From NCBI GenBank assembly GCA_947588845.1, contig CANQAR010000040.1:1-36306 (forward strand): DNA of 36,306 bases, in the 5' to 3' direction. The DNA is from an uncultured Lachnospiraceae bacterium (lineage in GTDB: Bacteria > Bacillota > Clostridia > Lachnospirales > Lachnospiraceae). A program made the translations under genes and the position numbers. Below the pieces are notes generated by a model. That model did not search any database and was not told the DNA's origin. It was given only the letters and a program-made list of their open reading frames with translations. Positions 2,655-33,791 of the stretch are shown here, in pieces; position 1 is the first letter of the stretch, and every line of letters starts with the position of its first letter.

Positions 2655-4001
2655 ATGAAAAAGAGGAACCTGGCTGCGGCTGGTCTGGCTGCGGTCATGC
2701 TGGCAGTCTGCGGAATAGCGATGCAGGCATCCGCAGCGAATATTGTTGTGAATGATAACCGTACGCAGCAAAATGACGAGAGCAGTACGGAAGTTCAGAC
2801 TGACGCTGAAAGCACTGCTGCTGAAAACACTGCTGCCGAAAGTACGGAAGCTGAAAGTACTGCGGCCGAAAATACTGTAGCCATAGAGGAAAATTTTGAC
2901 GTGAAAGGATGGCTCTATGAAAACTCCATTGGAGATACGCTGTATTTTGTAACAGTTAAGAACAATTCGCAGACCACGGTGTCGGTGAGCGGAAACGCGA
3001 CTGCCAAAGACTCAGCCGGAGCTGTTCTTGGAGCCGCCGATCTGTCGATTGATATAATTGGCCCTGGAGAAGAGACGATCGGTTATTTCTATTTTGATGA
3101 TGTTTCCGGAGCTGCTAAGGTTGATTATCAGCTTTCCTGCAATGAGGACATTTATTATGAGCCTGTTCTTGGAAATCTCGAGGTTGAGAAAAGCCTGAAT
3201 GAGACAAATGTTACGATCACTGTCACAAATAATGGTGATATTAACGCTGAATTTGTTGAAGCCTATGCGTTTTTTATGGACGCGAACGATAATATTATCA
3301 AGTATGATAACGAGTATGTGATAGACAATGACAGCCAGATCAAGCCGGGGGCTTCTCTGTCGACACAGCTGAACTGTTATGACACGTATGATCATGTGGA
3401 GATTTATCTTACCGGAAGGTCTGACGGGTCGTCGACGCCCGTGTCAGAGAGCATTCTGTCGGAAGATTTTTCCTCAGTCGGATATTTATATGAAACCAGC
3501 GTCGGAGATTCGCTGTACTTCCTTGTTGTGACCAACAATTCTTCTGAGGCCTGTTCGCTCAAAGGAAACGCTGTGGCCAGGGATGCTTCCGGGAAAGCGG
3601 TCGGGGCCGGTGATTTAACTCTGGATATACTTGGTCCGGGTGAGACTTCGATTGGTTATTTCTATTTTGACAAAGTTTTTGATATTGATACGGTTGATTA
3701 TCAGCTGTTTGGAAGTGATTCCTACTATGAGCCTGTTCTGAAGGATTTGTCGGCTGAGGTGACGATCAATGATGAGGATGTTGTTGTCGCGGTGACAAAC
3801 AATGGCGCCAACCCGGCACAGTTCCTTGAAGCTTATGTGTTGTTTTTTGATGCGGACAATAATCTGGTCTGGTATGAATCAGGATATCTCACAGATGATG
3901 ACAGTGAGCTTAAACCGGGAGCGACACTCTCTGAGCAGGCTGGTGTGAATAGTGAATTTGATCATGCGGAGGTTTACTTCCGCGGAAGATATTATGAATG
4001 A
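2655..4001 (+). CDS. Secreted protein with two tandem FxLYD-like repeats
   Basis: A 448-residue exported protein with signal peptide 1-28 (MKKR, hydrophobic core, ASA), a Thr/Glu/Ala-rich linker (about 40-82) with tandem AESTAAENT-type units, and two long repeats (about 83-265 and 275-448). Each repeat starts with a W/Y-LYE-S-GD-LYF-V-NNS block and later has IGYFYFD, VDYQL, YYEPVL, VTNNG, FVEAY and PGA-L. These immunoglobulin-like patterns (V-NNS, D-G, PGE, aromatic-LY) resemble the FxLYD family of Gram-positive surface proteins. The ATG at 2655 has AAGGGAGG upstream. No sortase motif or lipobox is convincing; the Cys in the signal core (LAVCG) is a poor lipobox. Function is unknown. An extracytoplasmic adhesion or sensing role is inference. 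Confidence 0.75.
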   Translation: MKKRNLAAAGLAAVMLAVCGIAMQASAANIVVNDNRTQQNDESSTEVQTDAESTAAENTAAESTEAESTAAENTVAIEENFDVKGWLYENSIGDTLYFVTVKNNSQTTVSVSGNATAKDSAGAVLGAADLSIDIIGPGEETIGYFYFDDVSGAAKVDYQLSCNEDIYYEPVLGNLEVEKSLNETNVTITVTNNGDINAEFVEAYAFFMDANDNIIKYDNEYVIDNDSQIKPGASLSTQLNCYDTYDHVEIYLTGRSDGSSTPVSESILSEDFSSVGYLYETSVGDSLYFLVVTNNSSEACSLKGNAVARDASGKAVGAGDLTLDILGPGETSIGYFYFDKVFDIDTVDYQLFGSDSYYEPVLKDLSAEVTINDEDVVVAVTNNGANPAQFLEAYVLFFDADNNLVWYESGYLTDDDSELKPGATLSEQAGVNSEFDHAEVYFRGRYYE

Positions 4002-4104
4002 GACTGGCAATGCAGTTTAGCGAAGCTGAATTTTACTGCTTTATGCGGGGCTGTCGGAAAAGTATCAAATGGGGGCTTGTCCCACCAGATATTTTCCGGC
4101 GGCC

Positions 4105-4200
4105 CTGTTTTCATGCGCAGGCCCAGGCATGGAAACCAGCTGCTGACGCAGTACCTGGGCCGCGCGGGCGAGCAGGAGGGAAAGCCGCCTCCTACTCGAT
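4105..4200 (+). repeat. Dispersed two-hairpin intergenic repeat, copy A
   Basis: This 96-bp unit is 89/96 identical to 23365-23460 and clearly related to the reverse complement of 33711-33791. It contains GGCCCAGG...CCTGGGCC (with an inner CTGC-TGAC-GCAG) followed by CGAG-C-AGGAGG...CCTCCT-A-CTCG. The flanks are unrelated, so the ends are sharp. Any open frame through it is an accident of the repeat. Confidence 0.85.
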
Positions 4201-4297
4201 TCACAGAAAATTTCGTCCTGTGACACAAAAAGCCTCTGGCTGGGTGCGCAGGTCTGCACAGGGAAATGGACTGTTGGAGCGGCTCTCTTTAAAAAAA

Positions 4298-4358
4298 GTT
4301 AATTTTGTTAACAAATAAATTGCAAGTTTTCTTTCTTTCGGGTGTATAAGTAATTGAA
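4298..4358 (+). promoter_or_regulatory. Promoter/operator module of the ECF sigma operon
   Basis: Palindrome GTTAATTTTGTTAAC (4298-4312), 8 bases, TGCAAG (4321-4326), 17 bases, GTATAAG (4344-4350), then TAATTGAA. The same arrangement with the same spacings precedes acpP at 5347-5407. TGCAAG...GTATAA is not a good sigma-A pair (TTGCAA to TATAAG would be 19 bp apart) but fits an ECF-type promoter. The palindrome is probably bound by a separate regulator. Confidence 0.65.
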
Positions 4359-4438
4359 AGCGTTTTAAAGGGCAGACATCCTGTGCCGCGGGCGGCAGGC
4401 GCTTCGTGCACAGAAAAATTACCGGCCAGAGAGGCCTG

Positions 4439-4460
4439 ATCTGGTGAAAACCGGATTTTT
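4439..4460 (+). promoter_or_regulatory. Terminator-like hairpin in the sigma-factor leader
   Basis: ATCTGGT-GAAA-ACCGGAT (7 bp, one G-U) is followed by TTTT and lies directly before the AAAGGAGG ribosome site of the sigma gene. Upstream in the leader are CTGTGC/GCACAG and GGCC-AGAGA-GGCC pairings. This could be an attenuator; the U-tract is short. Confidence 0.35.
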
Positions 4461-4482
4461 GCGGCAGAAAGGAGGCGGTCGT

Positions 4483-5043
4483 ATGGAACGTGAAATTGCG
4501 GAGCTTCTCGCGTCGCGCGACGAGCGGGGAATCGAGCTGGTCGCGCAGCAGTATGAGAAACTGATCCGCTACATAGCAGGCACGATTCTCGGGGACAGAG
4601 AGACATCTGTAGAGGAGTGCGTCAACGACGTGTATCTGAAACTGTGGGAACATGGCGCCGGATATGACTATGAGAAGGCTTCTTTTTCCACCTATCTCAA
4701 GGCGATCACGAGAAACACGGCGCTGAATTATCTGAGAAAACTCAAAAAACTTGAGGAAGTAGAAGAGACGGATGAGTCTGACACGCTCCGGGCAGAGTAC
4801 ATTGACTACAGTCAGAACCTGGAGCAGAGGGTTATAAACCGGGAAGAGGTTGAGGCGCTGAACAGGATTCTGGGGGACCTGAAAAAGAAAGACAAAGAGC
4901 TGGTGCTGCGCCGGTTTTATTACCTCCAGAGTACGAGACAGATCGCGGAGGCGATGGACATGTCGGAGAATGCGGTGGACAGCAAGCTCTCAAGACTCAG
5001 GAAAAAAATCAGGAAGGTTTATGAGAAGGAGGTGGCGGGATGA
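4483..5043 (+). CDS. ECF-type RNA polymerase sigma factor
   Basis: This 186-residue sigma-70 family protein has region 2 at about 25-90 (YEKLIRYIAGTILG, then EECVNDVYLKLWEH and FSTYLKAITRNTALNYLRK) and region 4 at about 130-180 (ELVLRRFYYLQSTRQIAEAMDMSENAVDSKLSRLRKKI). Length and the absence of regions 1 and 3 fit the extracytoplasmic-function group. The ATG at 4483 has AAAGGAGG 5-8 bases upstream. Its stop overlaps the next start (ATGA), so it is translationally coupled to the small membrane protein. The promoter block in front of it is duplicated in front of the fatty-acid operon, which suggests autoregulation and control of membrane lipid synthesis; that link is inference. Confidence 0.9.
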   Translation: MEREIAELLASRDERGIELVAQQYEKLIRYIAGTILGDRETSVEECVNDVYLKLWEHGAGYDYEKASFSTYLKAITRNTALNYLRKLKKLEEVEETDESDTLRAEYIDYSQNLEQRVINREEVEALNRILGDLKKKDKELVLRRFYYLQSTRQIAEAMDMSENAVDSKLSRLRKKIRKVYEKEVAG

Positions 5044-5276
5044 ACCGTTGGAATCAGTGTCGGCTGATCGATATTCTGAGTAATATTGATCTGTCTCTTC
5101 TGGAAGAGCATTTTCCGGAGGTGGATCTGGAGAATGTGAAGCGGATCGCAAAGAAAAAACACGGGAAAGCGGGAGTGTGGATTGCCGTGATTTCGGGGGT
5201 TGCCGCCGTCTCGGCGGCTCTGGCAGGAGTATTTGTATTTTTCCTGTCGCACGGGAAAATGCATTCTGTAAGATAA
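5040..5276 (+). CDS. Small single-pass membrane protein, putative anti-sigma partner
   Basis: The 78-residue protein has a charged cytoplasmic N-terminus (1-43, MNRWNQCRLIDILSNID..., ending in the basic stretch KRIAKKKHGKAG) and one transmembrane helix (about 44-69), leaving only a few residues outside. It overlaps the sigma gene by four bases. Position and topology match small anti-sigma factors that sequester a sigma at the membrane, but no zinc-binding HxxxCxxC motif is present and no family could be recognised. With almost no external domain, signal sensing would have to happen in the membrane or through another protein. A terminator follows, so the pair forms its own unit. Confidence 0.7.
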   Translation: MNRWNQCRLIDILSNIDLSLLEEHFPEVDLENVKRIAKKKHGKAGVWIAVISGVAAVSAALAGVFVFFLSHGKMHSVR

Positions 5277-5293
5277 ATGCGGCCGTTAGGATA

Positions 5294-5333
5294 AGCCTGG
5301 CAGTCTTGTGCTGTGGTATGAGGCTGTTTTTTT
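5294..5333 (+). terminator. Probable terminator of the sigma operon
   Basis: AGCCT (5294-5298) pairs with AGGCT (5321-5325), with an inner CAG/CTG pairing, and is followed by G and seven T residues. It separates the sigma unit from the fatty-acid operon promoter. Confidence 0.6.
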
Positions 5334-5346
5334 CGAATTGCAGAAA

Positions 5347-5407
5347 GTTAATTTTATTAACAAATAAACTGCAAGTTTTTTTCTTTGGACGTGTATAAGT
5401 AATTGAA
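5347..5407 (+). promoter_or_regulatory. Promoter/operator module of the fatty-acid operon
   Basis: Palindrome GTTAATTTTATTAAC (5347-5361), 8 bases, TGCAAG (5370-5375), 17 bases, GTATAAG (5393-5399), TAATTGAA. It repeats the module at 4298-4358 base for base in the key elements and spacings. It lies about 45 bases before acpP, so it should start the acpP transcript. Confidence 0.7.
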
Positions 5408-5442
5408 GACGATAAACTTAAGGTAAAGAAGGAGATTTCATC

Positions 5443-5676
5443 ATGCAGGAAAAATTAATTTCAATCATTGCGGAGCAGTTACATATTGATGAGAAGGATA
5501 TCAAACTTGAATCGGATTTCAAAGCCGACCTGAACGCGGATTCCCTTGACCTGTTTGAGCTGGTCATGGCTCTTGAGGAAGAGTATGACACGGAGATTCC
5601 GAATGAGGATCTGGAAAAGCTGACGACTGTGCAGTCTGTCGTGGATTATCTGAAAGAGAAAGGAATCGAAGAGTGA
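5443..5676 (+). CDS. acpP: Acyl carrier protein
   Basis: A 77-residue acidic protein of normal ACP length. The phosphopantetheine attachment site is Ser34 in [10 protein letters not shown], the canonical DSL motif. Helix I ([10 protein letters not shown]), helix II ([17 protein letters not shown]) and helix III/IV ([19 protein letters not shown]) are in order. AAGGAGA precedes the ATG. It is the first gene of the fatty-acid operon and carries all elongation intermediates in the cytoplasm. The stop overlaps the fabK start by one base (TGATG), indicating coupled translation. Confidence 0.97.
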
Positions 5677-6599
5677 TGAAGACGGCTTTGACAGAGCTTC
5701 TCGGCATTCGTTATCCCATTATGCAGGGAGGCATGGCCTGGGTGGCGGAACATTCTCTTGCGTCCGCTGTCTCAAACGCAGGCGGGCTGGGAATTATTGC
5801 GGCGGCGAATGCCCCATATGACTATGTAAAAGAAGAAATCCGAAAGACGCGGGAACTGACGGACCGGCCGTTCGGCGTAAATATCATGCTTCTGAGTCCT
5901 TACGCGGAGGATATCGCGCGTCTGGTCGTGGAGGAAAAGGTTCCGGTCGTCACGACGGGAGCCGGAAATCCGGGTCCTTATATGAAACAGTGGAAGGAGG
6001 CCGGGATAAAGGTTATTCCGGTTGTGGCTTCGGTTGCTCTTGCAAAGATGATGCAGCGGGGCGGCGCGGACGCGGTGATCGCGGAGGGCTGCGAGTCCGG
6101 CGGTCATATTGGTGAGGCAACAACGATGGTGCTTGTGCCTCAGGTTGCAGATGCAGTCAGCATCCCGGTGATCGCGGCAGGCGGAATCGGGGACGGCAGA
6201 GGTTTTGCGGCGGCGATGATGCTTGGTGCGTCCGGCGTGCAGATGGGAACGCGCTTCCTCGTGTCCGACGAGTGCGTGGTGCATCAGAACTACAAAGACC
6301 GGGTGCTGCGTGCGAAGGATATTGATACGGTTGTGACGGGACGTTCGACCGGCCATCCGGTCCGGACACTGCGCAACAGGACGACGAGAAAATATCTGGA
6401 ATATGAAAAAGAGGGAAAGAGCTTCGAAGAGCTGGAGGCGCTGACGATCGGCGGGCTGAGAAAAGCCGTGCAGGACGGCGATGTCGATTACGGTTCCGTG
6501 ATGTCGGGGCAGATTGCCGGTCTGGTGAAGAAACAGCAGAGCTGCCGCGAGATGATTGAGGAGATCATGCAGGAGGCGGAGGCACTTCTAAAGATATAA
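5676..6599 (+). CDS. fabK: Enoyl-ACP reductase II (FMN-dependent)
   Basis: FabK catalyses the last step of each elongation cycle, reducing trans-2-enoyl-ACP with NAD(P)H through FMN. The 307-residue TIM-barrel protein opens with LLGIRYPIMQGGMAWVAE and has NAGGLGIIAA, GVNIMLL, VVTTGAGNPG, the catalytic-histidine motif ESGGHIGE, VIAAGGIGDGRG and the phosphate-binding GASGVQMGTRF. These are hallmark FabK/nitronate-monooxygenase-fold motifs, and the operon context fixes the function. I prefer the ATG at 5676 (overlapping the acpP stop) over the preceding GTG. No fabI gene is seen here. This enzyme class is naturally insensitive to triclosan (family knowledge). Confidence 0.95.
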   Translation: MKTALTELLGIRYPIMQGGMAWVAEHSLASAVSNAGGLGIIAAANAPYDYVKEEIRKTRELTDRPFGVNIMLLSPYAEDIARLVVEEKVPVVTTGAGNPGPYMKQWKEAGIKVIPVVASVALAKMMQRGGADAVIAEGCESGGHIGEATTMVLVPQVADAVSIPVIAAGGIGDGRGFAAAMMLGASGVQMGTRFLVSDECVVHQNYKDRVLRAKDIDTVVTGRSTGHPVRTLRNRTTRKYLEYEKEGKSFEELEALTIGGLRKAVQDGDVDYGSVMSGQIAGLVKKQQSCREMIEEIMQEAEALLKI

Positions 6600-6788: not shown

Positions 6789-7709
6789 ATGAGCAGGATT
6801 GCATTTATATTTCCCGGGCAGGGAGCACAGTGTATCGGGATGGCGAAGGCGTTTTATGATTCGCATGAAGTGAGCAGGAACGTATTTTCAGAAGCTTCAA
6901 AGGCGGCAGGATTTTCCATCGAGGATATTTGTTTTGAGGAAAATGACAGGATTGATCAGACGAGGTATACGCAGCCGGCGCTGCTGACTGCGGAATGTGC
7001 CATTTTGAAAGCAGTTGAGGAATCGGGGATCCGCGCGGATATGACGGCGGGACTGAGCCTCGGCGAGTACAGCGCTCTGGCTGCCTGCGGGGTATTTTCT
7101 GTGCCGGAGGCAGTGAAAATTGTCTGCCAGAGAGGTATTTATATGGAAGAAGCGGTTCCGCCCGGAGAGGGAGGGATGACGGCGATTATCAGCCGGAAGC
7201 CTCTCGCGGCAGAGGAAATCTGTGCTTCGGTTGAAGGACAGGTGAGCGTCGCGAATTACAACTGCCCCGGGCAGCAGGTGATCACCGGGGAGACGGCAGC
7301 TGTGGCGGAAGCGGCAAAACGGCTGCTTGCGGCGGGAGCGATGCGCGCCGTGCCGCTGAATGTGAGCGGACCGTTTCATTCTCCGATGCTTGCGGAAGCG
7401 GGGAAAAAATTGAGAGCGCTGCTCGAAACGGCCGGGCTTCAGAGACCGTCCATTCCCTTTGTCTCAAATGTGACGGCGGGCAGCGTGGAGGAGCCGGAGG
7501 AGATCCGGGATCTGCTTGGCAGACAGGTGTGTTCTTCCGTGCTGTGGCAGCAGAGCGTGGAGTATATGCTCCGCGAAGGTATTGATACTTTTGTTGAGAT
7601 CGGACCGGGCCGGACCCTTGGAAATTTTGTGAGGAAGATTGACCGGTCAGCTCGTGTATTTCAGGTGGGAACTCCGGAGGAGCTTGCGAAGCTGAAGGAA
7701 GAACTGTGA
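6789..7709 (+). CDS. fabD: Malonyl-CoA:ACP transacylase
   Basis: FabD moves malonyl from CoA to ACP to supply elongation units. The 306-residue protein has the N-terminal FIFPGQGAQ motif, the nucleophile Ser90 in GLSLGEYSAL, the YTQPALLT segment, and the catalytic His197 in SGPFHSPML, followed by FVSNVTA and a terminal EIGPGRTLGNF motif. Length is standard. AGGAG lies 7 bases before the ATG. It is separated from fabK by 189 non-coding bases, an unusually long gap for this operon type, but no terminator or clear promoter is seen in it. Confidence 0.96.
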   Translation: MSRIAFIFPGQGAQCIGMAKAFYDSHEVSRNVFSEASKAAGFSIEDICFEENDRIDQTRYTQPALLTAECAILKAVEESGIRADMTAGLSLGEYSALAACGVFSVPEAVKIVCQRGIYMEEAVPPGEGGMTAIISRKPLAAEEICASVEGQVSVANYNCPGQQVITGETAAVAEAAKRLLAAGAMRAVPLNVSGPFHSPMLAEAGKKLRALLETAGLQRPSIPFVSNVTAGSVEEPEEIRDLLGRQVCSSVLWQQSVEYMLREGIDTFVEIGPGRTLGNFVRKIDRSARVFQVGTPEELAKLKEEL

Positions 7710-7743: not shown

Positions 7744-8484
7744 ATGCTGGAAGGAAAAATCGCGCTGGTGACAGGCGGCGGAAGAGGGATCGGCAGAGAG
7801 ATCGCGCTGACCCTGGCCGGTTACGGGGCTGACGTCGCGGTCAACTACAGCGGTTCAAAAGAGAAGGCCGAGGAGACGGCGGAGCTGATCCGCGCGGCGG
7901 GAAGGCGTGCCGCCGTCATACAGGCCGATATATCACAGAGAGAAGACTGTGTGCGTCTGTTTAAAGAAGCTGCGGAAACGCTTGGCCCGATCGATATTCT
8001 TGTGAATAATGCGGGAATCACGAGGGACAATCTCGCGGTCCGCATGAGTGAGGCGGAGTTTGCGCAAGTCATTGACACGAATCTGAAGGGAGCTTTTTTC
8101 TGCATGCAGCTTGCGGGAAAAGTCATGATGAAAAAAAGATATGGCAGGATCGTCAGCCTGTCGTCGATCTCGGGAGTCCATGGAAACGCGGGGCAGATCA
8201 ACTACTGCGCCGCGAAGGCTGGGATCATCGGCATGACAAAATGCCTTGCGAAAGAGCTTGCGTCCCGAAACATCACGGTAAATGCGGTGGCTCCGGGCTA
8301 TATTGATACAGACATGACGGCGGTACTTCCGGAGAAGGTGAAAGAGGCGGCGCTCGCGCAGATACCGCTCGGCCGTATGGGTACGCCGAAGGATATCGCG
8401 GAGACTGTGGCGTTTCTGGCGTCTGACCGGACGGCCTATATTACAGGTCAGGTGATTTCGGTGGACGGAGGCATGGGGATCTGA
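7744..8484 (+). CDS. fabG: 3-oxoacyl-ACP reductase
   Basis: FabG reduces 3-ketoacyl-ACP with NADPH. The 246-residue short-chain dehydrogenase has the cofactor loop TGGGRGIG (10-17), NNAG (88-91), the catalytic Ser141, Tyr154 and Lys158 (INYCAAKAG) and the C-terminal ITGQVISVDGGMGI. The ATG at 7744 follows AGGAGG by 7 bases; the in-frame TTG two codons earlier abuts the ribosome site. It lies 34 bases after fabD. Confidence 0.96.
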   Translation: MLEGKIALVTGGGRGIGREIALTLAGYGADVAVNYSGSKEKAEETAELIRAAGRRAAVIQADISQREDCVRLFKEAAETLGPIDILVNNAGITRDNLAVRMSEAEFAQVIDTNLKGAFFCMQLAGKVMMKKRYGRIVSLSSISGVHGNAGQINYCAAKAGIIGMTKCLAKELASRNITVNAVAPGYIDTDMTAVLPEKVKEAALAQIPLGRMGTPKDIAETVAFLASDRTAYITGQVISVDGGMGI

Positions 8485-8540: not shown

Positions 8541-9776
8541 ATGAGAAGAGTTGTGGTGACAGGACTCGGGGTGATATCTCCGGTTGGAAATACAGTGGAA
8601 GAATTCTGGAACAGTCTGAGGGCCGGCAAGGTCGGCATCGGGGAGCTGGACCGGTTTGATACTTCCAATTATAAGGTAAAAGTGGCGGCTGAGGTCCATG
8701 ATTTTGATCCGGAAAGCTGCATGGATTTCAAGGAAGCAAAGAGGATGGAGCTGTTCAGCCAGTACGCGGTGGCCGCGTCGTCTGAGGCCATCGCGCATGC
8801 GGGGCTTGATCTTGAGAAGGAGGACCGCTGCCGAATCGGCGTGTCGGTGGGCTGTGGAATCGGCGGTCTGCAGCTGATGGAGCAGGCGCATACGAAGCTG
8901 ACGACGAAAGGGCCGGGCCGCGTGCCGCCGCTTCTGATCCCGATGATGATCACAAATATGGCGGCCGGCAATGTTGCGCTGCATTTTGGTCTGAAAGGCA
9001 AATGTACCAATGTTGTGACGGCGTGTGCGACAGGAACGCACGCAATCGGCGACGCGTACCGCTCGATTCAGTGCGGCGACGCGGATGTGATGGTTACAGG
9101 CGGTACGGAGGCGGCGATCACGCCGCTTGGAATCGCGGGATTTATGGGGCTGACCGCACTCTCCACAAGCACGGACCCGCTCCGCGCTTCACTTCCGTTT
9201 GACAAGAACCGCAGCGGTTTTGTCATGGGCGAGGGGGCCGGAATCGTTGTGCTTGAGTCGATGGAACATGCACAGGCAAGAGGAGCGCATATTCTGGCGG
9301 AGATCTCCGGATACGGAGCGACCTGTGACGCATACCATATCACTTCTCCGTGCGAGGACGGCGACGGAGCCGCGCGTGCGATGCTGCTTGCGATACAGGA
9401 AGCGGGCCTTACCGTGAACGACGTGCAGTATATCAACGCGCACGGGACAGGCACGCATCATAACGATCTGTTTGAAACGCGTGCGATCAAGCGGGCATTC
9501 GGGGATGCTGCGTACGGGCTGAATGTCAATTCGACAAAGTCCATGACCGGCCATATGCTCGGGGCCGCGGGAGCTGCAGAGTTTATCGTGTGCGTGAAGA
9601 GCGTGATGGAAGATTATATCCATCCGACTGCCGGGTTTGAGTCGGCGGAGGAAGAGATGGATCTGAATTACACAAAAGAGGGCGTTAGCCGGGAAGTGAC
9701 GGCAGCTATCAGCAATTCACTTGGATTCGGCGGCCATAACGGGAGCCTTCTGGTGAAAAAATTTGCGGGGGAATGA
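8541..9776 (+). CDS. fabF: Beta-ketoacyl-ACP synthase II
   Basis: FabF condenses malonyl-ACP with the growing acyl-ACP. The 411-residue thiolase-fold enzyme has the nucleophile Cys162 in VTACATGTHAIG, His301 in NAHGTGTHHND, Lys333 (STKSMTGH) and His338, plus the gate glycine-rich SNSLGFGGHNG near the end. Length matches FabF. AGGAGG precedes the ATG. The GTGTHHND wording differs from the common GTSTPLND but keeps the catalytic histidine. It is the only condensing enzyme in the cluster; the initiating synthase FabH is not here. Confidence 0.96.
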   Translation: MRRVVVTGLGVISPVGNTVEEFWNSLRAGKVGIGELDRFDTSNYKVKVAAEVHDFDPESCMDFKEAKRMELFSQYAVAASSEAIAHAGLDLEKEDRCRIGVSVGCGIGGLQLMEQAHTKLTTKGPGRVPPLLIPMMITNMAAGNVALHFGLKGKCTNVVTACATGTHAIGDAYRSIQCGDADVMVTGGTEAAITPLGIAGFMGLTALSTSTDPLRASLPFDKNRSGFVMGEGAGIVVLESMEHAQARGAHILAEISGYGATCDAYHITSPCEDGDGAARAMLLAIQEAGLTVNDVQYINAHGTGTHHNDLFETRAIKRAFGDAAYGLNVNSTKSMTGHMLGAAGAAEFIVCVKSVMEDYIHPTAGFESAEEEMDLNYTKEGVSREVTAAISNSLGFGGHNGSLLVKKFAGE

Positions 9777-9928: not shown

Positions 9929-10477
9929 ATGAGACTTGGGCTGAATGAGATCATGTCTGTGATTGATAAAGTTAAAAACACCGGGCTGACGGCGTTTGAG
10001 TATCAGGATGCGGATATCCGGTTAAAAATAGGAAACAAAAATGCGGGAAACGCCGGAACTGCTTTCGGGACCGTTTGCGGTGCGGCGGATTCAGAAGCAT
10101 ATGGAATGGCGCCAGTCACGGAAAATGTTGGATCGTCGTACGGAGCGGAGCAAGGAATTCCATATGCGGCAGATTCCGCTCCCCTGCAGGAAACAGAGGA
10201 TGTACAGCAGGCGGGCAAGTACGTTTCTATAGAATCTCCGATGGTTGGAACTTTCTATGCGGCCGCATCGGAGAAAGAGGAGCCGTTTGTGAAAGTCGGT
10301 GATACGGTGAAAGCAGGGCAGACGGTCGGGATTGTGGAAGCAATGAAGCTGATGAATGAAATCGAAGCGGAATGCAGCGGAACTGTGGAGGAGATTCTGG
10401 TTGAGAACGGGCAGATGGTCGAGTATGGGCAGCCGCTGATGCGTGTGAGGACGGATGTGCAGACAGAAGGACGATGA
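9929..10477 (+). CDS. accB: Biotin carboxyl carrier protein of acetyl-CoA carboxylase
   Basis: This 182-residue BCCP carries the biotin of acetyl-CoA carboxylase, which makes malonyl-CoA. The N-terminal segment (1-36) is the family's alpha/beta cap. Residues about 40-95 form a low-complexity Gly/Ala/Glu/Ser linker. The biotinyl domain (97-175) has SPMVGTFY, the thumb [10 protein letters not shown] and biotin-accepting Lys140 in [13 protein letters not shown]. The ATG at 9929 follows GCAGGAGG. It is separated from fabF by about 150 bases containing a direct repeat. Confidence 0.95.
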
Positions 10478-10506: not shown

Positions 10507-10929
10507 ATGCTGGATACAAAACAGATTATGGAAATACTGCCGCACAGGGCGCCGTTTCTTCTGGTAGACCGGGTGGATGAGCTGGAACCGGCGAAGCGTG
10601 CGGTCGGGCGGAAAGCGGTCACTTACAATGAGCCGTTTTTTGCGGGGCACTTTCCGGCGGAGCCGGTCATGCCAGGGGTACTGATCATCGAGGCGCTGGC
10701 GCAGGTGGGCGCGGTGGCTCTGCTGTCCCATGAGGACTACCGCGGGAAGCTTGCCTTTTTCGGGGGAATCAGCAAAGCGCGGTTCCGCCGCAAGGTGGTT
10801 CCGGGGGATGTGCTGCGCCTGGAGGTTGAGCTGATTAAACTGAAAGGGCCGGTGGGAGTCGGAAAAGCGACGGCCACGGTGGATGGCGAGGTATGCGCGG
10901 AGGGAGAGCTGACCTTCGCGGTGCAGTGA
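10507..10929 (+). CDS. fabZ: 3-hydroxyacyl-ACP dehydratase
   Basis: FabZ dehydrates 3-hydroxyacyl-ACP to trans-2-enoyl-ACP. The 140-residue hot-dog protein has [14 protein letters not shown], the catalytic His48 in [15 protein letters not shown] and Glu62 in IEALAQVGA. Length is normal. It is 29 bases after accB with GGAGG upstream. Since no FabA is present, unsaturated fatty acids would need another route, which cannot be judged from this window. Confidence 0.96.
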
Positions 10930-11131: not shown

Positions 11132-12475
11132 ATGTATCGAAAGATTTTGATAGCGAACCGCGGAGAGATTGCCGTTCGCATCATACGCGCGTGCCGCGAG
11201 ATGGGGATCGCCTCGGTGGCCATCTGTTCCACGGCGGACCGCGACGCGCTTCACGCCCAGCTTGCGGACGAATGTGTCTGTGTCGGACCGGAGCGCGCAA
11301 AGGACAGTTATCTGAATATGGAAAGTATACTGAGCGCCGCGCTTGTGACCGGAGCAGAGGCGATACATCCCGGCTTTGGATTTCTGTCAGAAAATACAAA
11401 GTTTGCAAGAATGTGTATACAATGCGGGATTGATTTTATCGGTCCGTCGCCGGAGAGCATCGAGCGCATGGGAGATAAAGCCGAGGCGAGAAGGACGATG
11501 ATCGCGGCAGGCGTTCCCGTGATCCCCGGAACAAAAGAAACGTTTACGGATTCCGCTGCCGCGGCAAAAGCAGCCGGACAAATCGGCTATCCTGTGATGA
11601 TCAAGGCCTCTGCCGGCGGAGGCGGAAAAGGAATGCGTGTTGCAAAGGATCCGGAGGAGTTTGAGGAATTGTTTGCGACAGCGCAGCAGGAGACACTGCA
11701 GGCTTTTGGCGACGACCGGATGTATCTGGAGCGGTATCTGGGCGGCGCGCGCCATATTGAGTTTCAAATTCTTGCGGATAAATACGGGAATACCATTCAC
11801 CTCGGAGAGCGCGACTGCTCGATTCAGAGAAGACATCAGAAGCTGGTGGAAGAGACGCCGGCGGAATTTCTCGATGAGGAACTTCGTGCCCAAATGGGGG
11901 AAGCGGCCATCCGGGCGGCAAAGGCGACGGAATATTACAGCGCCGGAACGGTGGAATTTCTGGTGGATGACGACCGGAAATTTTATTTTATGGAGATGAA
12001 TACGAGGATTCAGGTGGAGCATCCGGTGACGGAGATGGCGACCGGAATCGATCTGATCCGTCAGATGATCCTGATATCGGCAGGGGAGCGGCTGAAATAC
12101 ACGCAGGAAGATATCCGGCTGCGCGGCCACGCGATCGAGTGCAGGATCACGGCGGAAGACCCTGCCCGCCATTTTCTTCCGTGTGCGGGAACAGTCACGG
12201 ATCTGTACCTGCCGGGAGGAAACGGGGTGCGCGTGGATTCTCTGCTCTACAACGGGTATCAGATACCGCCTTACTATGATTCCATGCTTGCGAAGGTGAT
12301 CGTTCACGCGGACAACCGAAGAGAAGCGATTTACAAGCTTAGAAGTGTGCTTGGAGAGCTGGTGATCGAGGGCGTCACGACGAATCTGGATTTTCAGTAT
12401 GAACTGACAGGCAGCGAGGCATTCGCGGTCGGGGACGCCGGGGCGGTCAACCGGATGCTGGAGCAGTATTGCTGA
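11132..12475 (+). CDS. accC: Biotin carboxylase subunit of acetyl-CoA carboxylase
   Basis: AccC carboxylates the biotin on AccB using ATP and bicarbonate. The 447-residue ATP-grasp enzyme has KILIANRGEIAVRIIRA, AIHPGFGFLSEN, the glycine-rich ATP loop KASAGGGGKGMR, ERDCSIQRRHQKLVEE, the metal/substrate segment EMNTRIQVEHPVTE and the C-terminal HAIECRITAEDP. GGAGG precedes the ATG. About 200 non-coding bases separate it from fabZ; these hold only degenerate ATTTGTTCCG-type duplications (10929, 11000) and no clear promoter. Confidence 0.97.
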   Translation: MYRKILIANRGEIAVRIIRACREMGIASVAICSTADRDALHAQLADECVCVGPERAKDSYLNMESILSAALVTGAEAIHPGFGFLSENTKFARMCIQCGIDFIGPSPESIERMGDKAEARRTMIAAGVPVIPGTKETFTDSAAAAKAAGQIGYPVMIKASAGGGGKGMRVAKDPEEFEELFATAQQETLQAFGDDRMYLERYLGGARHIEFQILADKYGNTIHLGERDCSIQRRHQKLVEETPAEFLDEELRAQMGEAAIRAAKATEYYSAGTVEFLVDDDRKFYFMEMNTRIQVEHPVTEMATGIDLIRQMILISAGERLKYTQEDIRLRGHAIECRITAEDPARHFLPCAGTVTDLYLPGGNGVRVDSLLYNGYQIPPYYDSMLAKVIVHADNRREAIYKLRSVLGELVIEGVTTNLDFQYELTGSEAFAVGDAGAVNRMLEQYC

Positions 12476-12589
12476 CGCCGCAGGGTATGAAAAAGCAGGC
12501 CGACAGACCAAATTTGAATACCTGCAGGAATGCATGCCAGACGGTTTTGTGCGTTTGCCATAGAACTGAATGAAATGAGGTGAATGGAA

Positions 12590-13498
12590 ATGCTGCGGGG
12601 AAAATTTAAAAAGACAGAGACGCTTCCGGCAGAAGAAGATTCGCTGGAAAATGTCCTTCCGTCAGTCGAAGCGTTGGATACGGCAAAAAAGACCGGAAAA
12701 AACAAAAGCAGGAAGGAAGTTCCGGATGGATTATTCCGAAAATGCGACGCCTGCAGAAAGATTTTGTATGAAGAAGATATCCGGGAAAACTGGTACTGCT
12801 GTCCAGAATGCGGAAAAAATTTTCGGATTGATCCGTGGACGAGGATCCGGATGCTGACAGATAAGGATTCCTTTGAAGAGTGGGACCGGGAATTGACGGG
12901 AGATGATCCGCTTTCGTTTCCTGGCTATGAGGATAAGCTGCGGGACATGAGGGAAAAAACCGGACTGACAGAGGCTGTCGTCACGGGGCAGGCGCTGATC
13001 CGCGGCAGCAGGACTGCGCTTGGCGTGATGTCGCCGGATTTTATCATGGGAAGCATGGGTACCGCGGTCGGGGAGAAGATTACAAGGATGGTGGAACGCG
13101 CCACGGCGGAGCGTCTGCCGGTGATTCTGTTCTGCTGTTCCGGCGGCGCGCGGATGCAGGAGGGAATCTTTTCTCTGATGCAGATGGCGAAGACCTCACA
13201 GGCATTGAAGCGTCATGATGAAGCGGGGCTGCTGTATGTCCCCGTTTTGACCGATCCCACGACAGGCGGCGTGACTGCGAGCTTTGCGATGCTTGGCGAT
13301 GTGATTCTTGCGGAGCCGGGCGCGCTGATCGGATTTGCCGGTGCCAGAGTGATTCGGCAGACGATCGGGCAGAAGCTCCCGGAGGGGTTTCAGAGTGCGG
13401 AGTTTCTGCAGAAACACGGGTTTGTGGATCGGATCGTCAGGCGGGAGCAGATGCGGACAACGCTGGGAGTGCTGCTGCAGAGCTGCGCGTGCCGATGA
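12590..13498 (+). CDS. accD: Acetyl-CoA carboxylase carboxyltransferase, beta subunit
   Basis: AccD and AccA together move the carboxyl group from biotin to acetyl-CoA. The 302-residue protein has a basic/acidic N-terminal extension (1-45), then a zinc ribbon with CDAC and CCPEC cysteines (about 49-72) and a crotonase-fold core (SPDFIMGSMGTAVGEKI, SGGARMQEGIFSLMQMAKT, PVLTDPTTGGVTASFAMLGDV, GFAGARVI). I chose the ATG at 12590: GAGGTG sits 7 bases before it, while the ATG at 12584 touches the ribosome site. Confidence 0.95.
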   Translation: MLRGKFKKTETLPAEEDSLENVLPSVEALDTAKKTGKNKSRKEVPDGLFRKCDACRKILYEEDIRENWYCCPECGKNFRIDPWTRIRMLTDKDSFEEWDRELTGDDPLSFPGYEDKLRDMREKTGLTEAVVTGQALIRGSRTALGVMSPDFIMGSMGTAVGEKITRMVERATAERLPVILFCCSGGARMQEGIFSLMQMAKTSQALKRHDEAGLLYVPVLTDPTTGGVTASFAMLGDVILAEPGALIGFAGARVIRQTIGQKLPEGFQSAEFLQKHGFVDRIVRREQMRTTLGVLLQSCACR

Positions 13499-13731
13499 TG
13501 GAGGAGATTTGCATTCCGGTGTCGATATCCTGGCGGAACGGAGCGGCCCGGTGAGAAATGTGAATCAGACAGGAGATAATGTGCGTTTTTGCTGACGGTG
13601 CCACACAGAGGAAAAACTGTGTGTATACAGAAAAATGTCAGAGAGAGAAAACCATGAACAGAGCTTTCGGATGAGAGCTGCCGACAGATGCAGAAGACAT
13701 CAGCGTATTGCAGGGAAAGCAGGAGAAATGT

Positions 13732-14547
13732 ATGGAACAGAAAATGGAACAGAACAGGACAGCCTGGGACCGCGTGCAGACAGCACGCGAAGAAAAACGT
13801 CCGCATGCTTCGGATTATATCGCAAAGATATTTGATGGTTTTATGGAACTGCGCGGCGACCGGCTTTTCGGCGACGACAGGGCGGTGATCGGAGGGATTG
13901 CCGGACTCGGAAAACGGTACGTGACCGTGATCGGACAGCAGAAAGGACGCAGCGCGAAAGAGAACAGACACCGGAATTTCGGAATGATGAAGCCGGAGGG
14001 ATACCGCAAGGCGCTCCGCCTGATGAAACAGGCGGATAAATTTGGCCGGCCGGTCATTCTTTTTATTGACACGCCCGGAGCGTTCTGCGGAGTCGACGCG
14101 GAGGAGCGCGGGCAGGGCGAGGCGATTGCCCGGAATTTGTTTGAGATGGCAGGACTGCGTGTTCCGGTTCTTGCGATTGTGATCGGAGAAGGCGGTTCCG
14201 GGGGAGCACTTGCGCTTGGCGTCGCGAACGAAGTCTGGATGCTGGAAAATTCGATTTACTCTGTACTCTCGCCGGAAGGCTTTGCCGCAATTCTCTGGAA
14301 GGACGGAAAGCGTGCGGCGGAGGCAGCCGAAGTCATGAAGATCACTGCGGATGAGCTTTGCGAGGCGGGGATCGTGGAGAAAGTGATACCGGAGCCGGAG
14401 GCGGCCGACCGGGAGCATATGGATGAGCTTGCAGGGTATATGAAGCAGGAAATCCTGAGTTTTCTGGGACGATATGACAGGATGACGTCAGAGGAAATTT
14501 TGAATCAGCGCTATGATCGTTTCCGCCGGATGGCAGTGCCGAGGTAA
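13732..14547 (+). CDS. accA: Acetyl-CoA carboxylase carboxyltransferase, alpha subunit
   Basis: The 271-residue partner of AccD. After an N-terminal helix (AWDRVQTAREEKRP) it shows DYIAKIFDGFMELRGDRLFGDD, VTVIGQQKGR, RNFGMMKPEGYRKALRLMKQA, FIDTPGAFCGVDAEERGQGEAIARN, the oxyanion-loop GEGGSGGALALGVAN and YSVLSPEGFAAILWKD. The ATG at 13732 has AGGAG 6 bases upstream; an earlier in-frame TTG does not. The 233-base gap after accD holds a CACACAG/CTGTGTG hairpin (13603-13625) but no T-run. Confidence 0.95.
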   Translation: MEQKMEQNRTAWDRVQTAREEKRPHASDYIAKIFDGFMELRGDRLFGDDRAVIGGIAGLGKRYVTVIGQQKGRSAKENRHRNFGMMKPEGYRKALRLMKQADKFGRPVILFIDTPGAFCGVDAEERGQGEAIARNLFEMAGLRVPVLAIVIGEGGSGGALALGVANEVWMLENSIYSVLSPEGFAAILWKDGKRAAEAAEVMKITADELCEAGIVEKVIPEPEAADREHMDELAGYMKQEILSFLGRYDRMTSEEILNQRYDRFRRMAVPR

Positions 14548-14552
14548 AAGGA

Positions 14553-15953
14553 ATGAAAAGAGATAATGATTTGAAGAACAAACGCTGCGCTGTATCCGGA
14601 AAGTTTGCGGAGATGTTTCCATGTTTGGAAATTCCTGTTTTTCAGGGCGGCATGGGTGTAGGAGTGAGCCTTGGGAGGCTTGCGGGCGCGGTTGCCGCCG
14701 AGGGAGGCGCGGGCACGATTTCCACGGCCCAGATCGGATTTGCGGAGCCGGATTTTGCCGGGAATCCGATGCGCGCGAATCTGCGGGCAATCGGGAAGGA
14801 GATTGCCAGGGCGAAGGAAATTGCCGGGGGGCGCGGGATGATCGGCGTCAATATCATGACGGTCACAAAAAATTACGGAGAATACGTGCGTGAGGCAGTA
14901 CGTCAGGGAGCGGACTTCATTGTGTCCGGCGCGGGCCTGCCGATGGATCTTCCGTTTTTTACGAAAGGAAGCGCCGTAAAAAAGATTCCGATTGTTTCTT
15001 CACTCAAAGCCGCGAGTGTGATCTGCCGACGCTGGCTGAAAAAGGAGAACGAGCTGCCGGACGCCGTGATCATTGAAGGTCCGCTTGCCGGCGGACATCT
15101 TGGATTTACGCAGGAGGAGGCGGAGCGGGCGCAGGAAGCCGTGAATTTCTCCGGGCTGCAGGAAGAGGAAGGGTTTTCCGGATCGCAGAGAACAGAAGAA
15201 TTTTCCGGACTGCAGGCAGGGGAAGAATTTTCCGGACTGCAGGCAGGGGAAGGGTTTTCCGGACTGCGGGAAGAGGAAAGTTTTTTCAAATTGCAGAGAG
15301 CAGAAGGTTTTTCCAGGTTGCGGGAAAACAGAGAGCTTCCGGGAGAAGAAGAGGAAACTTCCGGGAACTGTAGCGTTCAGTCTGACAAGGGCGGAACTTT
15401 GGGCTGGTATGAGGAAGAAGTGCGCAGGATTATCCGTTTTGTGCGGGAATTCGGGGAACAGCACGGAAAATATATTCCGGTCATCACGGCGGGCGGGTTC
15501 CGTACGCACGCGGATCTGATACATCAGCAGGAGCTGGGCGCTGATGGGATACAGGCGGCCACACGTTTTGTCGTGACGGAGGAATGTGACGCAGCCCGGC
15601 AGTTCAAGGAAGCCTACGTAAAGTGCCGGAAAGAGGATATTGCGATCATCAAAAGTCCGGTCGGGATGCCGGGGCGCGCGATCCGCAATGCCTTTATCCA
15701 TCGGGTGCAGGAGCACAAGATTTCACCGGCGCATTGTTATCAGTGCCTTTCTGTCTGCAGTCCCGCAAAGACGCCGTACTGCATCACACAGGCTCTGATC
15801 AATGCCGTCACAGGCGATACGGAGAACGGGCTTGTCTTCTGCGGCGCAAATGCCTGGAGAGAAGACAGGATTACGACGGTACGCGAGGTACTGAAAGAAT
15901 ATGTCGGAGATGAGATGCTTACAGAAAATTGTGTTATATTGGATTTCAAATAG
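14553..15953 (+). CDS. FabK-like / nitronate-monooxygenase-family flavoenzyme with repeat insertion
   Basis: A 466-residue TIM-barrel FMN enzyme related to FabK and nitronate monooxygenases: PVFQGGMGVGVSL, GVNIMTV, FIVSGAGLPMDLP, catalytic-region IEGPLAGGHLGF, VITAGGFRTHADL, GADGIQAATRFV, SPVGMPGRAIRN and a Cys-rich tail (CYQCLSVCSPAKTPYC) typical of a clostridial subgroup. That subgroup is usually about 360-390 residues (from memory). The extra length comes from residues about 199-270, with seven 9-residue repeats of the FSGLQAGEE type. It begins 5 bases after accA and ends the operon. A second enoyl reductase or a flavin-dependent lipid-repair enzyme are both possible; the reaction is not settled by sequence. 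Confidence 0.8.
   Translation: MKRDNDLKNKRCAVSGKFAEMFPCLEIPVFQGGMGVGVSLGRLAGAVAAEGGAGTISTAQIGFAEPDFAGNPMRANLRAIGKEIARAKEIAGGRGMIGVNIMTVTKNYGEYVREAVRQGADFIVSGAGLPMDLPFFTKGSAVKKIPIVSSLKAASVICRRWLKKENELPDAVIIEGPLAGGHLGFTQEEAERAQEAVNFSGLQEEEGFSGSQRTEEFSGLQAGEEFSGLQAGEGFSGLREEESFFKLQRAEGFSRLRENRELPGEEEETSGNCSVQSDKGGTLGWYEEEVRRIIRFVREFGEQHGKYIPVITAGGFRTHADLIHQQELGADGIQAATRFVVTEECDAARQFKEAYVKCRKEDIAIIKSPVGMPGRAIRNAFIHRVQEHKISPAHCYQCLSVCSPAKTPYCITQALINAVTGDTENGLVFCGANAWREDRITTVREVLKEYVGDEMLTENCVILDFK
15147..15335 (+). repeat. Seven in-frame 27-bp repeats inside the flavoenzyme gene
   Basis: Units begin TTTTCCGGACTGCAGG or close variants and encode FSGLQEEEG, FSGSQRTEE, FSGLQAGEE, FSGLQAGEG, FSGLREEES, FFKLQRAEG and FSRLRENRE. 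The third and fourth units are almost identical in DNA, which suggests recent duplication; the outer units have drifted. The frame is intact throughout. Confidence 0.9.
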
Positions 15954-23331: not shown

Positions 23332-23369
23332 AAAACCCCGGAATCTTATCTGGATTCCGGGGCTCTGTT
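23332..23369. terminator. Terminator hairpin between NlpC/P60 gene and pyk
   Basis: CCCCGGAATC pairs perfectly with GATTCCGGGG (10 bp, 7-base loop). The plus strand continues CTCTGTTCTT; the minus strand continues TTTTCC, so it can end both converging transcripts. It directly abuts repeat copy B. Confidence 0.75.
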
Positions 23370-23460
23370 CTTATGCGCAGGCCCAGGCATGGAAACCAGC
23401 TGCTGACGCAGCACCTGGGCCGCGCAGACGAGCAGGAGGAAAAGACGCCTCCTACTCGAT
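23365..23460 (+). repeat. Dispersed two-hairpin intergenic repeat, copy B
   Basis: 89/96 identical to 4105-4200. It lies between the terminator hairpin and the pyk stop codon. The 8-bp GGCCCAGG/CCTGGGCC stem and the CGAG-AGGAGG/CCTCCT-CTCG stem are both kept. Confidence 0.85.
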
Positions 23461-33697: not shown

Positions 33698-33710
33698 TAT
33701 TCTGCCTGCG

Positions 33711-33791
33711 ATCGAGTAGGAGGCGGCTTTTTCTCCTGCTCGTCCGCGCGGCCCGGGTGCTGCGCCAGCAGCACCCGGGCCTGTGCATGAA
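33711..33791 (-). repeat. Dispersed two-hairpin intergenic repeat, copy C
   Basis: The reverse complement matches copies A and B at the ends (CATGCRCAGGCCC and CGAGCAGGAG...CCTCCTACTCGATC). The central part differs: here it is a perfect 14-bp hairpin GGCCCGGGTGCTGC/GCAGCACCCGGGCC. Its start merges with the T-run of the tRNA terminator. Confidence 0.8.

Follow-up and report, generated by a model that had tools for sequence, protein, structure and literature searches.

The window, the whole 36,306-nucleotide stretch of Lachnospiraceae DNA analysed here, carries on its plus strand two copies of a short block. Copy A precedes the gene of an extracytoplasmic function (ECF) sigma factor and that of a small membrane protein, and copy B precedes acpP, the first gene of a run of fatty-acid synthesis (fab) and acetyl-CoA carboxylase (acc) genes. 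In copy A the palindrome GTTAATTTTGTTAAC (4298..4312) is followed after 8 nt by the −35-like TGCAAG (4321..4326), after a further 17 nt by the −10-like GTATAAG (4344..4350) and then by TAATTGAA (4351..4358), a probable transcription start region judging from the sequence and from start-codon distances in relatives. Copy B repeats this order with the palindrome GTTAATTTTATTAAC (5347..5361), read in the sequence and found by a genome pattern search, TGCAAG (5370..5375) and, 17 nt later, GTATAAG (5393..5399), both recovered by pattern and profile searches, and TAATTGAA (5400..5407), read in the sequence. A sequence-only reading had proposed two such blocks about 1.05 kb apart and their placement before the sigma pair and before acpP, and on both points it was borne out.

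The sigma factor (186 aa, 4483..5043) matches Pfam Sigma70_r2 (PF04542, residues 22-88, 1.3e-14) and r4_2 (PF08281, residues 125-176, 5.5e-9) over cut-off, and TIGR02937 at 1.3e-26. It has the sigma2 and sigma4 regions only and no sigma3, as in ECF (group 4 sigma-70) factors, and the sequence upstream of its gene suggests a bipartite promoter of its own, which is common among ECF sigma factors though not universal. The next gene (5040..5276), which shares four bases with the end of the sigma gene and so overlaps its stop codon, codes for a one-helix membrane protein of 78 aa, the putative anti-sigma partner. A terminator-like hairpin with a T run lies between partner and copy B (5299..5328, hairpin scan), but the two such hairpins found in the region compare with a shuffled mean of 1.4 and are thus near chance. 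The fab/acc run then begins with acpP (acyl carrier protein, 5443..5676, TIGR00517 1.8e-27) and fabK (enoyl-ACP reductase II, 5676..6599, TIGR03151 4.9e-154). It continues with fabD (6789..7709, Acyl_transf_1), fabG (7744..8484, adh_short_C2), fabF (8541..9776, ketoacyl-synt N and C), accB (biotin carboxyl carrier protein, 9929..10477), fabZ (10507..10929, FabA-like), accC (biotin carboxylase, 11132..12475), accD (12584..13498, Carboxyl_trans and Zn_ribbon_ACC) and accA (13708..14547, TIGR00513 3.7e-113), the names accB and accC being taken from sequence and gene order alone. The last gene of the run (14553..15953) encodes a FabK-like protein with inserted internal repeats, whose TIGR03151 match (2.6e-30) is below cut-off.

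The copies lie 1,049 bp apart, and in a self-BLAST of the window 4295-4358 pairs with 5344-5407 at 90.8% (E 1.6e-17). The pattern GTTAAN5TTAACN8TGCAAG has exactly two matches in the genome of 5,060,965 bases, copies A and B, and its reversed control has none. Identity is concentrated in the elements: 22/24 positions of the palindrome region, 6/6 of TGCAAG, 7/7 of GTATAAG and 8/8 of TAATTGAA agree, while the spacer is alike at 10/17 positions and the following 14 nt at only 4/14. Since the −35, −10 and start-region elements are identical around such divergent sequence, the pair is not a plain recent duplication. Copy pairs compared within single genomes likewise had these three elements identical and spacers alike at 10-11 of 17 positions.

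The distribution of the element was followed in 47 genomes of the genus, the window genome (G000) included. For 36 of these the whole genome was searched for the sigma protein, and in the remaining 11 the judgement covered only the surroundings of fabK; for three (G060, G066, G069) there was no sigma test and no fabK match at 1e-60. An ortholog with 67-98% identity is present in 25 of the 47, and 23 of the 25 have sigma gene and acpP on one contig; in G033 both stand at contig ends, and G029 has them on two separate contigs. TGCAAG-N17-GTATAAG, or a near match, lies upstream of the sigma gene in 24 of the 25. In the remaining genome, G020, the element is found at the end of another contig beside mutS2, and the sigma gene lies near the end of its own contig; the two ends do not overlap, and we infer that promoter and gene belong together. 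A gapped pattern, TGCAAGNTTT-N13-GTATAAGTA with at most one mismatch, gave 28 sites, all in the 25 sigma-bearing genomes: 24 directly upstream of the sigma gene, the one at the G020 contig end and three upstream of acpP. Exactly two mismatches added six sites, one of them a second copy in G063. Neither pattern nor profile searches found a full-length match in the 22 other genomes.

The profile search (Infernal with stricter filters, at most 130 candidates scored per genome, matches listed to E 0.77) gave 29 sites above 40 bits, all within the same 25 genomes, and the next among the matches listed was a partial one at 21.1 bits. Since 28 of these 29 sites either served to train the profile or match such a site exactly, the informative part is that no other site resembling them is among the matches listed for the 47 genomes; the recognisable regulon is thus the sigma-fab locus, the G063 copy aside. 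In ten genomes (G009, G014, G026, G030, G032, G035, G061, G063, G064 and G065) the start codon follows the element by only 3-18 nt, which places the promoter position tightly. The additional G063 copy (locus L170, G063:C68:11600-20500, at about 7700) precedes likely type I restriction-modification genes that stand between it and the sigma gene, and this cassette may have been captured by the promoter or inserted with duplication of it. Genes of relatives other than homologs of the window's genes, such as mutS2, sugar and restriction genes, were named by eye.

The same arrangement extends well beyond the genus. Family searches covered 200 genomes and then 397 genomes from 334 genera (E up to 1e-45), and the latter search returned sigma orthologs in 11 genomes of 10 genera, our own genus counted, with 42-50% identity in the other genera. 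All ten family loci outside the genus combine a one-helix partner with fab genes, the first being acpP and/or fabK, fabD, or fabF, and in each of the nine other genera the fab genes directly follow the sigma-partner pair. Where longer stretches were available (five loci), four run through accA (G414, G311, G197 and G242), and in the fifth (G120) only fabF and a FabK-like gene matched. In another family of the same order, G480 carries the sigma gene, a partner match, fabK and fabD; the contig of G500, from the same genus, ends inside the sigma gene. With this truncated locus set aside the layout spans 11 genera in two families. These orthologs score at least 235 bits (the partial G500 147 bits) and the next matches at most 134 bits; beside the latter stand different partners or neighbouring genes, and the stretches examined showed no fab match. 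Within 200 nt upstream of the sigma gene, TGNAAG-N17-GTAT occurs in 12 of 12 loci from other genera (shuffled mean 0.02, maximum 1 in 500 trials) and in none of 17 other ECF loci serving as controls, namely distant homologs (L214-L216, L235-L239) and nine others (L023-L031). Autoregulation of the sigma gene, as suggested in the sequence-only reading, is thereby supported by comparison, the element standing before the sigma gene both within the genus and outside it. Among the control loci, the ECF genes at L214-L216 are paired with a membrane partner of approximately 480-500 aa and display CGTGTATAAT-like −10 sequences (L215 upstream region), a hint of related −10 recognition.

A counterpart of the small membrane partner is encoded after the sigma gene in all 29 related loci examined. 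Its architecture consists of an N-terminal stretch resembling LIDxxxxIDxSLxExxxPExDLE, a single membrane helix towards the C-terminus and 7-27 further residues after it; among the genus members small residues abound in the helix, and linker lengths differ widely. The usual layout of an ECF anti-sigma is a gene directly after that of the sigma factor, encoding a cytoplasmic stretch and then one membrane helix. By predicted topology this layout is found at 29 of 29 loci, and the sigma and partner frames overlap in 21 of them; the partner is likely an anti-sigma. Almost nothing exists beyond the helix, so any sensing would take place within or at the membrane, and membrane sensing by the partner is plausible only. 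Alternatively, the partner could be a positive cofactor, or a membrane protein of the lipid pathway, with sigma activity simply tracking sigma level. Positive two-subunit sigma systems do occur in Bacillus subtilis, and the partner is very short, matches no family and shows to the eye no zinc-binding anti-sigma motif. Its position directly behind the sigma gene, the overlapping frames and the cytoplasmic stretch with a single membrane helix argue the other way, and we regard a positive or metabolic role as unlikely.

The link to the fatty-acid genes was examined in genomes with and without the sigma factor. Presence of the block before fab genes in strains lacking the sigma had been named in advance as the observation that would speak against the circuit. 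Fourteen genus genomes have fabK and acpP with no sigma gene beside them, and inspection, pattern and profile searches found the element before acpP in none of these; the comparison of relatives that had been called for likewise showed element (at most one mismatch) and sigma factor co-occurring in the same 25 of 47 genomes. On the fabK tree four label changes are needed, and the starred branches force four; most simply, the sigma factor has one gain, or an old presence, and three losses (a clade of five, a clade of four and G001, the sister of sigma-bearing G032). The gene mutS2 lies divergently upstream of acpP in sigma-less G007 and G012 and beside the sigma promoter in G061 and G020. A TTGACA-N16-TATAAT sequence upstream of acpP in sigma-less G007, G012, G013 and G062 (0/200 shuffles as good, by the home-made sigma-A score used in these housekeeping-promoter scans) indicates that one clade lacking the sigma factor has a consensus housekeeping promoter for the operon; in the other ten of the 14 the same scan gave no promoter better than shuffles.

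Read-through from partner to acpP was assessed in 23 sigma-bearing genomes, G029 and G033 being outside this set since sigma gene and acpP are on different contigs. With G014, G030 and G064 dropped (partner miscalled) and G000 and G067 set apart as two-block genomes, no terminator-like hairpin was found between partner and acpP in any of the 18 usable one-block genomes, where the gap is 32-211 nt; copy B of G000 and of G067 has a hairpin and T run ahead of it. A sigma-A-like site before acpP scored better than shuffles in one of 16 scannable gaps (G027, TTGATT-N18-TATTAT, 3/200 shuffles as good). The second block before acpP is confined to G000, G067 and G029. In G029 the contig carrying the sigma-partner pair continues to its end with genes for a ROK regulator, a dehydrogenase and sugar uptake. 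The contig carrying acpP starts, ahead of this gene, with permease and sugar-kinase genes and two ATPase genes. The simplest reading places a sugar operon between the sigma-partner pair and acpP. The block has been kept on both sides, and this split is the strongest indication that the element is required for acpP.

One may ask whether the sigma factor transcribes only itself and its partner, together with copy B where this exists, the fab genes of relatives using other promoters and the link being positional only. In most relatives acpP is without a block of its own, the G027 site is fair, and a scan that misses promoters in ten of 14 sigma-less genomes may miss them in sigma-bearing ones as well. 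In addition, an AACGGC..GCCGTTTACTATA inverted repeat stands just before acpP in G026, G061, G063, G032 and sigma-less G001, a subclade with and without the sigma factor, and is possibly another promoter or a repeat. Still, same-strand adjacency has been kept in 11 genera of two families, none of the 18 usable genomes has a terminator between partner and acpP, and the second copy, in the three genomes that possess it, sits before acpP; we regard a purely positional link as improbable. The proposal that the sigma factor acts on the fab operon through paired blocks needs to be modified: the pair does head fatty-acid genes in 11 genera, but the usual layout has one block, and the second copy is found in three genomes only. 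Control of the fab operon by the sigma factor has a strong case in the window genome, G067 and G029, and is probable in the other relatives.

The palindrome was the part of the block that did not generalise. GTTAA-N5-TTAAC is present at both copies in G000, G067 and G029 and only upstream of the sigma gene in G006, and is a clade-specific AT-rich upstream element of these four genomes. The other 21 sigma-bearing genomes have different A/T-rich stretches in its position, and the part common to all is AAA and A/T bases before TGCAAG. Its place as a component of the general block was therefore given up, and taken alone the palindrome is not special genome-wide; as a distributed operator it was rejected (four genome sites against five for the reversed control). 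The A/T stretch just upstream of TGCAAG resembles an UP element, which may be its role. Within the four genomes, each of six copy pairs differs at no more than two of the 24 positions of palindrome and A/T stretch, as if the site were protein-bound, and so an additional clade-specific regulator may bind there. This conservation, and the resemblance of TTGCAA and TATAAG to sigma-A hexamers, would also suit a block made of a sigma-A promoter and a palindromic operator for a separate repressor or activator, with the ECF sigma incidental. Against this, the palindrome is missing where TGCAAG-N17-GTATAAG or a near match remains, in 21 of 25 sigma-bearing genomes, and the TTGCAA to TATAAG spacing of 19 nt is poor for sigma-A. 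Further, a consensus housekeeping-promoter scan of 3950-5500 returned none on the plus strand, no full-length match is listed in sigma-less genomes, and the element accompanies the sigma factor in 11 genera. We consider a sigma-A promoter with an operator very unlikely.

A small dispersed repeat, mobile or REP-like and of no regulatory role, can practically be dismissed as the origin of the two copies, for although 4094-4200 nearby is repeated at 23355-23460, the block has two genome copies only, a count on which this reading was rejected, both before operon starts, and it holds the same position in many genera with conserved elements around a drifting spacer. The nearby repeat is itself intergenic, about 60-107 bp with 90-92% identity, at 4094-4200 (just upstream of the block), 23355-23460 and 33710-33772.

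The best explanation overall, which we consider likely, is that both blocks are promoters of the ECF sigma factor encoded at 4483-5043 and drive its own operon and the fab/acc genes; that the block is an ECF promoter of the neighbouring sigma factor is well supported by its distribution. Several observations weigh against this explanation. The genomes that served to derive the motif were also those searched for it, and TGCAAG is present in all 28 genus promoters compared, which were themselves chosen by a pattern containing it. With up to two mismatches 34 matches compare with 16 for the reversed-pattern control. The upstream regions of the other genera had been inspected before TGNAAG-N17-GTAT was counted, and the −35 is TGAAAG in L209 and TGTAAG in L211. 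The genus profile recovers six of ten promoters of other genera, one of them through its −10 half only, and also scores the promoter of control locus L215 (13.9 bits) and an unrelated place in L209. Sigma factor and promoter could vanish by one deletion, which makes it partly trivial that sigma-less genomes lack the element. Away from the sigma gene, the element stands before fab genes in only three genomes, all closely related. The absence of a housekeeping promoter from 15 of 16 gaps is weak evidence since the scan fails in ten of 14 sigma-less genomes too, and no basal housekeeping promoter upstream of the sigma gene was seen in the window genome by the home-made score. Finally, the partner has no recognisable anti-sigma domain (no Pfam family, one NCBIfam match at E 0.42), and its AlphaFold2 model (helices 3-14, 33-39 and 44-76) is of low confidence (pLDDT 66).

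Some further observations concern the locus and its surroundings. Possible basal sigma-A promoters upstream of the sigma gene were seen in six genomes: in G009, G014, G026, G035 and G064 as TTGCCT-N17-TATACT, 66-120 nt upstream of the ECF promoter (5-14% of shuffles equal), and in G065 as TTGACA-N16-TAGAAT (0.5% of shuffles equal). No RNA element was matched in Rfam within 3900-5700. FabH (TIGR00747) had no match in 12 of the 25 sigma-bearing genomes, the window genome counted among them; across the genus 26 of 47 genomes have some match and 20 a match over cut-off, and in sigma-less G002, G019, G025 and G070 fabH lies directly upstream of acpP. Genomes without a match may initiate fatty-acid synthesis by another or a diverged enzyme. 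At the far end of the window (35467-36306), long tandem-like Ala/Glu/Gln/Lys repeats lie in the last part of an open frame that the contig end cuts off.

The circuit we propose builds on what is read directly in the genomes, namely the element, its conservation, its co-occurrence with the sigma gene, the gene order and the partner architecture; from these we infer recognition of the element by the sigma factor, inhibition by the partner, the kind of signal and transcription of the entire run as one unit. The general promoter would comprise an A/T-rich upstream stretch, a −35 of TGCAAG followed by a purine or T and TTT, and a −10 of GTATAAG(TA) at 17 nt from TGCAAG. From it the sigma factor would transcribe its own gene and that of the membrane partner, and then the genes of fatty-acid elongation and of acetyl-CoA carboxylase. 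A single promoter heading sigma-partner-acpP-fabK would serve the whole cluster in most relatives, and in the window genome and two close relatives a second copy would drive acpP onward separately, the split operon forming two units under the same sigma factor. The partner would most likely tether the sigma factor at the membrane and free it on a membrane or lipid-supply cue, and release would give a self-amplifying switch for lipid synthesis. Only tentatively do we advance the full version of this circuit, in which an essential housekeeping pathway, that of the fab/acc genes, is entrusted to a dedicated sigma factor whose gene stands first in the operon, with little or no housekeeping transcription, and a tail-anchored partner reads the bilayer directly, membrane state thereby setting sigma release and lipid synthesis within a self-amplifying loop. 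For the most part ECF sigma factors serve as stress switches. If a conserved module of this class has the core lipid operon as its only recognisable target, Firmicutes would possess, besides FapR and FabT, a third way of controlling fatty-acid synthesis. The module is also a testable candidate for how gut bacteria in which no FapR was found adjust lipid synthesis to the needs of the membrane, with a very small membrane protein as possible sensor.

The literature found on ECF sigma factors and clostridial fab operons, subscription papers and preprints being outside its coverage, holds no description of this module. FapR, the classical global regulator of fatty-acid synthesis in Gram-positive bacteria, is a repressor that senses malonyl-CoA (PMC5052256, in excerpt). 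None of the 47 genus genomes has fapR over the curated cut-off (seven weak partial matches, E 7e-6 to 8e-4; one of 14 control genomes over cut-off with the same model), which fits the suggestion that the circuit differs from that of FapR. The window's fab run, the only part looked at for this gene and without a model search, holds no fabT-type gene; FabT belongs to the MarR family. FabT is described as a repressor (PMC5052256, in excerpt) and controls the fab locus in Streptococcus pneumoniae (PMC8265628, in excerpt).

Closer parallels are found among ECF sigma factors. In B. subtilis, as excerpted in PMC3498285 citing Kingston et al. 2011, a sigma-W promoter lies inside fabHa, affects two genes of the fabHA-fabF operon and has no effect without stress. 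The likeness consists of an ECF sigma factor acting on fatty-acid genes and on membrane properties (PMC3498285, same excerpt), but in that account the fabHA-fabF operon is also listed as FapR-regulated and sigW serves a large regulon. In the window module, by contrast, a dedicated sigma factor stands at the head of the entire fab/acc cluster, and no further site can be recognised. Overexpression of SigX in Pseudomonas aeruginosa induces enzymes of fatty-acid synthesis and alters membrane fluidity (PMC3875570, in excerpt); SigX is likewise an ECF sigma factor bearing on fatty-acid synthesis, but a Gram-negative regulator of many genes. The same paper describes a fabH3 operon predicted to contain another ECF gene and a putative anti-sigma, this ECF factor, according to a figure legend, not activating the fatty-acid synthesis genes (PMC3875570).

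Canonical autoregulated pairs of ECF sigma factor and membrane anti-sigma have the sigma gene first, the membrane partner second and a promoter of their own, and the window module resembles them in all three respects, its promoter being a predicted one. It differs from them in its partner, in which no anti-sigma domain can be recognised and which all but ends with its membrane helix, and in directing the sigma factor, as we propose, to a biosynthetic operon normally considered housekeeping.

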